Shown: positions 26,627 to 30,095 of the stretch, one piece after another
How the letters are laid out: every line of letters starts with the position of its first letter
How positions within the stretch are numbered: the first letter of the stretch is position 1
Assembly (NCBI GenBank): GCA_029776995.1
Contig: JAKOTZ010000068.1
Location: 1-43,781 of the forward strand
DNA from: Candidatus Hydrogenedentota bacterium
GTDB lineage: Bacteria > Hydrogenedentota > Hydrogenedentia > Hydrogenedentales > CAITNO01
Direction: 5' to 3'
DNA length: 43,781 nt
Notes under the pieces: generated by a model
Seen by the model: the letters and a program-made list of their open reading frames with translations, nothing else
Databases searched by the model: none
Told to the model about the DNA's origin: nothing
Made by a program: the position numbers and the translations under genes

Positions 26627-27157
26627 ATGATTTGCCAGAAGTGCCACCAAAAACCTGCAACAGCCCGATACATAGAGGTCGTTGAGGGCAAGGCGGTTGA
26701 GCAGCATGTCTGTGCGGAATGCCTTGCCAAATACCTTCAGGGCGGATCTGAAGCCTTCAGCCTGAATGAGATCAAACCCCGCATTTACGCGCCCGGCAGC
26801 CAGACAGAACAGCAGAAGCCCCCTCTGCGGCGGCCGCGACAGGCATGCCCGGCCTGCAATACATCGCTCGCCACCATCATGGAAAAGAAAATGGTGGGGT
26901 GCACTGAATGCTACCGGCACTTTTATGACACCATCGAGGAAATCCTGGGCCAGATACAGCCCGGCACCCGGCACCAGGGCCGTTCCAGCGCGCGGGACGA
27001 CGCAAGGTCCCGACTGCGGAATGATCTCCGGAGCAAACGGGCTTTGTTGCGTAGCGTGCTCAAGGTGGAAGATTATGAGCAGGCCGCAATCCTCAGGGAT
27101 GAAATCAGGCGGCTGGAAGCGGGACTGCAAATCGGCGGGGGAGAAGAACTTCCATGA
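26627..27157 (+). CDS. mcsA: McsA-like zinc-finger protein with UVR motif
   Basis: 176 residues. Two treble-clef-like CxxC pairs begin the protein (C3/C6 and C28/C31), then another two (C74/C77, C93/C96, in CPACNT and CTECYRHFY). The C-terminus has a UvrB/UvrC motif, DYEQAAILRDEIRRLE. This is the McsA layout; in Bacillus McsA activates the arginine kinase McsB and helps control CtsR and Clp proteolysis. ATG 26627 has AGGA 10 bases upstream. Its stop overlaps the next gene (ATGA), so both are co-produced. No ctsR or clpC is in the window. Confidence 0.9.
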   Translation: MICQKCHQKPATARYIEVVEGKAVEQHVCAECLAKYLQGGSEAFSLNEIKPRIYAPGSQTEQQKPPLRRPRQACPACNTSLATIMEKKMVGCTECYRHFYDTIEEILGQIQPGTRHQGRSSARDDARSRLRNDLRSKRALLRSVLKVEDYEQAAILRDEIRRLEAGLQIGGGEELP

Positions 27158-28371
27158 AACAGAGTGACCTGCTGCCAGCCGCCCTGCCTGAATGGTGCGG
27201 TTCAGACATGGAACCGTCTTCCTGGACGGAGATCGTTTCGTCCTGCACCCTCTGCAGGAACCTGCCAGATCTTCCCTTTCCCCCCGCTGCCCGGGCAGAA
27301 GAAAAACAGGAAGCGCTTCGCCGGGTTGAAGACGCAGTAAGATTGCTCTCTCCCCTGCAGGATCATCTGGCCTGTACAGAAAAAGAACTGGAATCGCCGC
27401 TTGGGTCCCTGCTGGCTGAACGCCACCTCGCTCCGCGCGAGGTATTGCACGGGCACGGTCCACGCGCCCTGTTCACGGACCGACGGGGCAGCCGCGCACT
27501 GATAATTAACGCCCTGGACCATGTGTCTATCCGGGCGCTTGCCCCGGGCAATAACACATCCATGGCCCTCCAGCAGGTTTTATCCGTGGAGGAAACCTTG
27601 GGAAGTGTGCTGGATTTCTCCTACGACGAACAGCGGGGATTCCTGACTTCCCGACTGACCTGCACGGGGACCGGACTTAAAGTATGCGTGCTGTTACACC
27701 TCCCCGCGCTAACCCTGATGGGCTTGCCAAAACTGTATCCGGGAACGGCCAAGACCCGGGACGTCGCTTTTTGCGGAGTCGCCGCGGGCAGTGGATTGGA
27801 TCTGCCGCATCTGGGCGCTCCACCCTCTGAGCCTCAGCAGCTTTCGGCTACGCCGTACATGCCCGTCGAGCCGATAACGGAACAGTGCTTGCTGACTGAA
27901 ATTGAAGGGTTCATACCCGTCCCGCCGGAAAAGTCCCCTGGCGCGTTGTACGCCGTTTTCAACCAGCATTCTCTCGGCGTTTCCGAAGAGGAAATTGCCT
28001 ATGGGGTATACCACGCCGCCAGGGAATGGTGCGTCAAAGAGGAAGAAACTCGCCTGACACTGCTCAAAAGCAACAGGCTTTGGCTGCAGGACTGGGTCGG
28101 ACGGGCGGTTGCCCTGGCGCGGGGAACCCATATTGCCGGTTTCGGTGAAGCGCTGGACTGGATTTCACGGATCCGGCTGGGGGCGGCTCTCGGTTTACTG
28201 CGCATGCCAGGGCTCACCCCGGCTGCGTTAAACCGGATGTTGATTGAAATCCAGGCCGCCCATCTGGCCAACGGAACCAGTGAAGAACTCTCATCCCGTC
28301 TCCACCTGGCAAGACTGCGCGCCGAAAAATTACGCGCCTTTCTGGCTCAGTGTGAAATTACCGCCTCCTGA
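27154..28371 (+). CDS. McsB-like ATP:guanido phosphotransferase homologue with degenerate active site
   Basis: The 405-residue frame follows McsB along its length, including GTGLKVCVLLHLPAL (177-186 area), FNQHSLGVSEEEI (269-281) and the helical C-terminal region. The catalytic motifs are altered. SSRxRLARN is SSCTLCRN (29-36); INEEDH is INALDH (118-123), losing both acidic residues; the catalytic CPTN is RLTC (167-170); RGxYGEG is EGFIPVP (251-257). The frame itself is uninterrupted and codon use is normal, so it is not a broken gene. Known McsB phosphorylates arginines to mark proteins for ClpCP; this one probably binds substrates or McsA without catalysis. It overlaps mcsA by four bases. 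Alignment was done by eye. Confidence 0.82.
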   Translation: MKQSDLLPAALPEWCGSDMEPSSWTEIVSSCTLCRNLPDLPFPPAARAEEKQEALRRVEDAVRLLSPLQDHLACTEKELESPLGSLLAERHLAPREVLHGHGPRALFTDRRGSRALIINALDHVSIRALAPGNNTSMALQQVLSVEETLGSVLDFSYDEQRGFLTSRLTCTGTGLKVCVLLHLPALTLMGLPKLYPGTAKTRDVAFCGVAAGSGLDLPHLGAPPSEPQQLSATPYMPVEPITEQCLLTEIEGFIPVPPEKSPGALYAVFNQHSLGVSEEEIAYGVYHAAREWCVKEEETRLTLLKSNRLWLQDWVGRAVALARGTHIAGFGEALDWISRIRLGAALGLLRMPGLTPAALNRMLIEIQAAHLANGTSEELSSRLHLARLRAEKLRAFLAQCEITAS

Positions 28372-28385
28372 CCGGAAACGCCGAT

Positions 28386-30095
28386 TTACGCGCCCAGATT
28401 AACCAGTACTTCCAGCAGGCGGTCCGCTATGGAGATAATCCGGACGGATCCCTGGAATGCCCGCTCGTAGGCGATCAGGTTCGTTACCTCTTCATCCATG
28501 TTTACGCCCGATACTTCTTCACGGCGGCGATCAAAATCCTGCGCAAAACCCTGCTCGACCTGAAGCGAGGCGCTGTTGTCCCGGCTCTGAATCCCCAGCC
28601 GGGCCACAGTCGCCTGATAAAATCCTTCCAGCGTCTGCCGGCCTGAGTCGGCAACCGACGAAGCGCGCAGGGCCTGCATGGCCAGCGCCGCGCGGTTATC
28701 GCCGGTCAGCCGGAAATTCGTTCCATAACCGGAACTGATCCACTCGAGGTTGGTTTCGAGGTGGTCTGAAAGTCGGATCGTTTCGGCATCCGTACCGCTG
28801 AACAGGCCATTCATACCCAATGATACCAGCGCGCCGGAGGTGTCATTGGCAAACGCGAATCCGAACCCGGTCGCGGAAGTTACCACCAGACGGCCGTCCG
28901 CGTCCACGTTTGCGGAAAGATTGGCCATGCCGTCAATGGCGGCGGCAATGTCCTGCGCGGAGGTTACACCGGACGTAACCGGAATGGTCAATGTCTCGGC
29001 CAGCGCGCCGGCGGCATCAAACACGTTGACTGTGAAAGAGCCATTTTGAAGAGAAAAGGGCACATCGCCTGCCGGATCATCCAGCGCAAGCGTCGGGTCT
29101 GTCCGGCGGACACCCCCGACAATAGTCCCCGACAGCGGCGCCAGCCCTCTGCCCTGGCTGTGAATGCCGTTTACCGATTCAATAAGGGCCCGCGCGATTT
29201 CATCGGTCCGATCCCGGTAATCCGCCGCCACGTAATCCCGCATAATCAGCAGGCCGCGCAGTTCTCCCCCGACAATCAACGTGTTCTGCCCGGTATCCGC
29301 CCATCGTACCCGCAACAGATCCGGACGGTCGGAATCTATGGTATCGTCTGCCGTTGCGGTCAGCGCCCGCCAGCGGTCCCCGTTGACCAGCTGCTCATCC
29401 CCCAGCAGCACCTCTACCTCTCCGTTGTCCCGTTCCCGGTAGCTGACTTTGACCAGCCGGGAAAGGCGGTCCAGCAGACGGTCCCGCTCATCGCGCAGGT
29501 CATTGGCCCGTGCGCCATTGGCTTCGATGCGCCGGATCGACACATTTGTCTCCGCGATGCGTTCCGCCAGCGCGTTGATTTCCGGAATCATATTCCGGAT
29601 TTCTTCGTTGGCATTCGACCGTACCACTTCGATCCGCCGCGCGGTTTCATTCAGCGCATTGGAAATTGCCCGGGTTTCCGAAAGAAGCGCCTCGCGCACT
29701 GAGGGATCTTCCACGTTTGAAGAAAATTCGGAAAGCGCCTCAAAAAACGCGCTGAGTCTGGCACCGAAACTTTGCTCTCCGGGTTCCTGAAAAATATCCT
29801 CCAGCCGGGTGTAGAATCGGTCCTGAACGTCCACCTGGCCAAGGCTGGCCATTTGGGTCCGATATACCTTGTCCAGAAATTCCTCGCGAACCCGGTTTAC
29901 CCCCGCTATCTTGGGGCCCCTTCCCAGTTCCCCATAGTACGTATAGTTGGGCTGCCAGGTGGTGACGTCTACCCGCTGGCGGGAATAACCTTCGGTGTTG
30001 ATATTCGCGATGTTATGGCCTGCCGTATCCAGCTGCGCCTGGGCCACCATCAGCCCATTTCTTCCGATATGCAGGGCACTGAACAAAGTTCCCAT
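28386..30095 (-). CDS. flgK: flagellar hook-associated protein 1 (FlgK)
   Basis: 569 residues. The N-terminal rod/hook motif is LDTAGHNIANINTEGYSRQR, and the C-terminus is VNMDEEVTNLIAYERAFQGSVR, the two regions that pair in a coiled coil and define FlgK. The variable middle is exposed in the filament junction. It joins hook and filament outside the cell. Unusually it stands alone: flgL, flgM, flgN and fliD are not adjacent. It converges on the mcsB-like gene with a 14-base gap. No strong Shine-Dalgarno precedes the ATG. Two flagellar sigma-factor candidates lie upstream. Confidence 0.95.
   Translation of the reverse strand: MGTLFSALHIGRNGLMVAQAQLDTAGHNIANINTEGYSRQRVDVTTWQPNYTYYGELGRGPKIAGVNRVREEFLDKVYRTQMASLGQVDVQDRFYTRLEDIFQEPGEQSFGARLSAFFEALSEFSSNVEDPSVREALLSETRAISNALNETARRIEVVRSNANEEIRNMIPEINALAERIAETNVSIRRIEANGARANDLRDERDRLLDRLSRLVKVSYRERDNGEVEVLLGDEQLVNGDRWRALTATADDTIDSDRPDLLRVRWADTGQNTLIVGGELRGLLIMRDYVAADYRDRTDEIARALIESVNGIHSQGRGLAPLSGTIVGGVRRTDPTLALDDPAGDVPFSLQNGSFTVNVFDAAGALAETLTIPVTSGVTSAQDIAAAIDGMANLSANVDADGRLVVTSATGFGFAFANDTSGALVSLGMNGLFSGTDAETIRLSDHLETNLEWISSGYGTNFRLTGDNRAALAMQALRASSVADSGRQTLEGFYQATVARLGIQSRDNSASLQVEQGFAQDFDRRREEVSGVNMDEEVTNLIAYERAFQGSVRIISIADRLLEVLVNLGA

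Follow-up and report, generated by a model that had tools for sequence, protein, structure and literature searches.

The mcsA-mcsB* locus

The window analyzed here is a 43,781-nucleotide stretch of DNA from a Candidatus Hydrogenedentota bacterium (assembly GCA_029776995.1, contig JAKOTZ010000068.1, positions 1 to 43,781). Three genes within it define the locus, the second of which we designate mcsB*:

26627..27157, + strand: mcsA, McsB partner and activator, 176 aa; four CxxC motifs, UVR motif at the C terminus
27154..28371, + strand: mcsB*, predicted McsB pseudokinase, 405 aa, with an ATG start
28386-30095, - strand: flgK, converging on mcsB*, the two stop codons 14 bp apart

The mcsA product matches NF053706 (103 bits across 168/176 aa) as well as UVR PF02151, and its four CxxC motifs and UVR motif make it recognizable as McsA. 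The start of mcsB* overlaps the mcsA stop by 4 bp (ATGA). An earlier note on this DNA had described an intact McsA coupled to an inactive McsB, and the coupling is borne out by this arrangement. Because flgK is convergent with mcsB*, the mcsA-mcsB* unit ends there and no clpC lies downstream. A second, intact mcsB was sought in the window's genome and none was found; mcsB* is the sole guanidino-kinase homologue there.

The mcsB* product is a folded McsB homologue

McsB models match the mcsB* product in two stretches, well over noise and far under the NCBIfam equivalog cut-offs (161 bits for NF002194, cut-off 385; 128 bits for NF053707, cut-off 500). The PF00217 phosphotransferase domain is recognized at 75 bits, and a phmmer search of the PDB matched Geobacillus McsB with an E-value of 9e-24. 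An AlphaFold2 model, built with the window sequence and the sequences of related loci, has a pLDDT of 85.6 and a pTM of 0.86. The solved structures closest to this model are those of McsB from B. subtilis and Geobacillus, matched over the full length, with B. subtilis McsB 6tv6 as the top Foldseek hit (TM 0.91 by target, rmsd 2.3 Å, 22% identity). Based on the model and these structural matches, the fold of the mcsB* product is that of McsB. Both the PF00217 domain and the C-terminal McsB dimerization domain are present, confirming the product as a genuine, folded McsB homologue.

The catalytic and phosphoarginine-binding sites are lost

Canonical McsB marks damaged proteins for degradation by phosphorylating their arginines. 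Ten catalytic or ADP-binding positions were scored in the numbering of the 6fh1 chain (R32, R34, E124, E125, R129, C171, N174, R180, R211 and E216). The window protein retains 0/10 of them, with the replacements R32 to S, R34 to T, E124 to A, E125 to L, R129 to S, C171 to R, N174 to C, R180 to K, R211 to C and E216 to P, the last two lying on the lid loop. The affected segments are as follows:

27241..27249, + strand: SSRxR remnant (S30, T32), two nucleotide-phosphate-binding Arg lost
27511..27528, + strand: NEEDHxR remnant (A120 L121 D122 H123 V124 S125), acidic pair and Arg lost
27652..27663, + strand: CPTN remnant (R167 L168 T169 C170), catalytic Cys lost
27793..27903, + strand: disordered insertion, residues 214-250, AF2 pLDDT < 50, replacing the catalytic lid loop RGxYGEG
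28306..28323, + strand: RDxxRA remnant LARLRA, phosphoarginine-binding motif, RD lost and RA kept

The earlier note had read the loss of every catalytic element on a preserved guanido-kinase frame, and this holds when the protein is aligned with the solved McsB structures, which do not bring the catalytic residues back. Two of its motif readings, INEEDH to INALDH and CPTN to RLTC, are reproduced exactly. A third, the loss of SSRxRLARN, stands with a corrected segment, VSSCTLCRN rather than SSCTLCRN. The fourth, RGxYGEG to EGFIPVP, does not survive as a residue-by-residue match, since an insertion of about 40 residues prevents clean alignment of the lid; the conserved Arg and Glu are nonetheless restored by no alignment. 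This insertion is missing from the ~350-aa members in families f4 and f5.

McsB has a further, allosteric site for phosphoarginine, R341/D342, which B. subtilis McsB numbers R337/D338 (PMC8370763). This site is also lost, with Leu and Ser/Ala replacing the pair and the adjoining Arg-Ala retained.

Some pseudokinases stay active through migrated residues, and it is conceivable that McsB* is still an enzyme that uses re-wired residues for nucleotide binding or a different phosphotransfer. The cleft does keep R35 and N36, just downstream of the SSRxR remnant, along with N119, the invariant H123 of the NEEDHxR remnant and a conserved GTG. However, the five nucleotide-phosphate Arg, the acidic pair, the Cys and the lid Glu are replaced differently from member to member (the catalytic Cys alone becomes S, R, A, D, N, Q and others), which is what would be expected of released constraint rather than of a newly built catalytic centre. 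Six positions have been gained, all of them P, R, G or L, and no invariant acidic residue is among them. Cys170, three residues off the catalytic Cys position, is shared as a Cys by only 3/58 family members and is thus no family-wide replacement. We consider a re-wired enzyme very improbable. The pseudokinase reading of mcsB* is strongly supported: its product is McsB by homology, and by function is predicted not to be a protein-arginine kinase.

The loss is ancestral to the phylum

The earlier note covered a single gene. We examined 68 Hydrogenedentota genomes, which are drafts of varying completeness (the named records are all MAGs). PF00217 is present in 60/68 of these, and a homologue is carried by 54/60 relatives. 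A single-protein scan of genome contigs gave no confirmed relative; the scan with a narrower alignment as query succeeded. Every one of the 58 distinct Hydrogenedentota McsB sequences read has only 0-4 of the ten positions left, and no canonical McsB was found in the phylum. By comparison, 69/69 relatives outside the phylum (68 records, mainly Planctomycetota, plus the Firmicute Heliorestis) keep 10/10, even though they were ranked by likeness to the pseudokinase query.

In a maximum-likelihood tree, the Hydrogenedentota McsB sequences group as a single clade with an SH-aLRT of 100, and its stem is long (0.97 changes per column). A single loss that predates the radiation of the phylum explains this most simply. 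An origin ancestral to the phylum is strongly supported.

mcsB* is maintained by selection

Long branches and a long stem, together with the fast evolution of lineages such as the window's genus, could indicate a pseudogene on its way out or an artefact of MAG assembly. Several observations speak against this reading, and the dN/dS values contradict it. All near-complete homologues have an open frame, and the same state recurs in independently assembled genomes. Pairwise NG86 dN/dS among close congeners is 0.036-0.20 for mcsB*, compared with 0.02-0.20 for canonical planctomycete mcsB; NG86 is a simple method and dS is partly saturated. For the window gene and its congener in G001, dN/dS is 0.128 at a dS of 1.65, which is near saturation, and the same pair gives 0.11 for mcsA and 0.03 for clpC. 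In addition, 48 columns conserved in Planctomycetota stay conserved in Hydrogenedentota. Together with the dN/dS values, these columns argue that the mcsB* product is selected, and decay is hardly credible. By these sequence measures mcsB* is under purifying selection, somewhat looser than that on the enzyme, in agreement with the earlier note, which had concluded from the open frame and the mcsA overlap that the gene is maintained.

Partner interfaces are retained

Three elements involved in contacts with McsA or with a second McsB subunit are kept in the window protein:

27622..27642, + strand: McsA-binding loop, residues 157-163, YDEQRGF (YDEQLGY in S. aureus McsB), retained
28102..28104, + strand: R317 (S. 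aureus R262), dimer salt bridge, 69/69 in the phylum
28147..28149, + strand: E332 (S. aureus E277), partner in the dimer salt bridge, 69/69 in the phylum

In S. aureus McsB, the loop Y147-Y153 receives the McsA zinc finger (PMC12467219). On the McsA side, four CxxC motifs are found in 55/56 Hydrogenedentota proteins. McsA and mcsB* go together, in that a genome missing one also misses the other, with exceptions at contig ends; those with neither mcsB* nor a real McsA are G022, G024, G033, G047, G050 and G061. The octamer clamp Arg194 was considered as a further marker and is uninformative, as it is already Lys in Planctomycetota.

Eraser, CtsR and the ClpC pocket

LMW-phosphatase-family proteins occur in 57/68 Hydrogenedentota genomes. 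Among the 79 of these phosphatases with a readable P-loop, the motif is either of the tyrosine-phosphatase type (CLGNICRSP) or of the arsenate-reductase type (CTGN[S/A]CRSQ). The YwlE-type motif, CTGNTCRSP, has Thr at P-loop position 5, a residue that sets phosphoarginine specificity (PMC8001253). We found this ArgP phosphatase signature in 0/79 Hydrogenedentota P-loops, compared with a CTGNTCRSP protein in 10/10 sampled control genomes with canonical McsB. From the sequences, then, the writer, the eraser and the kinase's own reader site all appear to be missing across the phylum.

Two cases of domain fusion, the first only probable, concern phosphatases of this family. In the Planctomycetota loci L248-L256, YwlE-type (CTGNTCRSP) domains lie within open frames of about 385-474 aa; given this frame length, the phosphoarginine phosphatase there probably carries a second, fused domain, which may be Sua5-like. 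The window's genome has a gene (L110:981-1811, + strand) that joins an ArsR-like regulator to an LMW phosphatase domain of the arsenate-reductase type, and this gene adjoins an arsenite methyltransferase-like gene.

CtsR was found in 0/68 Hydrogenedentota genomes and was rejected as a target of McsB* on these grounds. If the phosphoarginine code is gone, loss of the ClpC pocket glutamates might have been expected, but this was not borne out: Hydrogenedentota ClpC keeps both (E32 and E106), with TEH in both N-domain repeats. These glutamates also stabilize the ClpC resting state (PMC12583610). The residue preceding the first TEH is Arg in 42/42 Hydrogenedentota ClpC (e.g. L109:1706-4159, + strand); where the genome encodes a canonical McsB, the ClpC residue is Gly (11/11). 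We speculate that this change from GTEH to RTEH beside the E32 pocket could be a candidate matching change on the ClpC side.

Gene order links mcsB* to clpC in eight families

The order mcsA-mcsB*-clpC is found in at least 36 genomes from 8 families of the phylum, 31 of them identified by ORF analysis and the other five by coordinates. Planctomycetota loci with canonical mcsB and enough room number roughly 60, and clpC directly follows mcsB in 1 of them; Heliorestis, the Firmicute, provides the other mcsB-clpC positive in the outside set. McsB*-ClpC fusions were considered for G032 and G055, which have long open frames, and rejected, as a stop separates the genes.

Within the window's family (f1), clpC is not beside mcsB*. 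It is present in the window's genome, unlinked, on contig C56 (818 aa), and the ClpC connection for this family therefore rests on other families. One genus of f1 (g7) carries stand-alone Clp N-domain genes, the first of which (in G015) lies 8 bp downstream of mcsB*:

L003:789-1469, - strand: stand-alone Clp N-domain gene, 226 aa, two Clp N-terminal repeats, no AAA domain
G012:C569:1438-1818, - strand: similar Clp N-domain ORF, genus g7

The g7 protein may serve as a ClpC decoy or docking module.

The absence of a neighboring clpC throughout f1, the window's genome included, would suit a McsB* with no direct ClpC role, one that assists or antagonizes McsA alone or else works on a different target, for example a transcription factor or an unfoldase such as ClpX or Lon. 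B. subtilis McsB indeed affects CtsR, and perhaps ClpX, independently of its kinase activity (PMC5506225, PMC7235348). Set against this are the gene order shared by the 8 families, the missing CtsR and, in g7, the Clp N-domain gene that takes the place of clpC beside mcsB*. We regard a McsB* without a direct role at ClpC as unlikely, if a more serious contender than a re-wired enzyme. The earlier note had suggested a regulatory or adaptor role in Clp proteolysis, and this suggestion gains support from the clpC linkage in other families.

Discussion

The phylum has probably given up the phosphoarginine code, with McsA-McsB* left as an adaptor or regulator of ClpC that works without kinase activity. 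The remaining parts serve contact with McsA, contact between McsB* subunits and, as gene order suggests, contact with ClpC, and those for phosphoarginine chemistry are removed, which makes an adaptor the most economical explanation. According to this model, McsB* would neither bind ATP canonically nor transfer phosphate to arginine. It would still fold as McsB, most likely dimerize, and bind McsA via the conserved loop. McsA would provide a zinc- and thiol-based stress sensor, and the complex would bring misfolded or specific clients to ClpC, switch ClpC on from its resting state, or both, in a phosphorylation-free manner. The retention of both ClpC pocket glutamates and the unlinked clpC of f1 weigh against a ClpC adaptor.

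A precedent comes from B. subtilis, where kinase-dead McsB C167S still speeds MgsR turnover relative to the deletion (PMC7235348). MgsR, for which this kinase-independent adaptor activity is reported, is a ClpXP substrate. In B. subtilis, McsB is reported to depend on its kinase activity both for activating ClpC and for directing degradation by ClpCP (reviewed in PMC5506225), so the adaptor mode proposed here must differ and may call for ClpC itself to have changed.

McsB* resembles the McsB kinases of B. subtilis (6tv6), Geobacillus (6fh1) and S. aureus (8gqd) in its full-length fold, McsA loop, dimer bridge and the RA of RDxxRA, in having mcsA upstream and, in most of the phylum, clpC downstream. 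It differs in lacking the catalytic, nucleotide-binding and phosphoarginine-binding residues and in its disordered lid insert, and Hydrogenedentota differ from the kinase systems in being without CtsR and a YwlE-type phosphatase. C167S, like McsB* as predicted, is without kinase activity, and as an adaptor it still promotes the turnover of a substrate (PMC7235348), but it is a laboratory point mutant with the rest of the site intact, whereas the loss in McsB* is natural, ancient and complete. The proposed function, non-catalytic delivery and ClpC activation, is similar to that of MecA/YpbH, compared here by function from the literature only; these are unrelated by sequence. Bacterial Ser/Thr pseudokinase families are likewise natural and conserved across lineages, with an unrelated fold, and the review describing them sets arginine kinases aside (PMC12599244). 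Full-text searches of open-access papers turned up no description of an McsB pseudokinase occurring in nature.

Annotation pipelines may label the Hydrogenedentota mcsB* genes as protein-arginine kinases. In Firmicutes, it is debated whether McsB is mainly a phosphoarginine writer or also a non-enzymatic ClpC adaptor, both roles being held in one protein. A phylum without writer and eraser that has McsA, McsB and ClpC separates these two roles, and a kinase-independent role of McsB becomes directly testable with purified proteins. On balance, we think that the whole phylum runs McsA-McsB-ClpC quality control without phosphoarginine, in which case a non-catalytic role of McsB would have been selected since the ancestor, possibly matched by the GTEH to RTEH change in ClpC.
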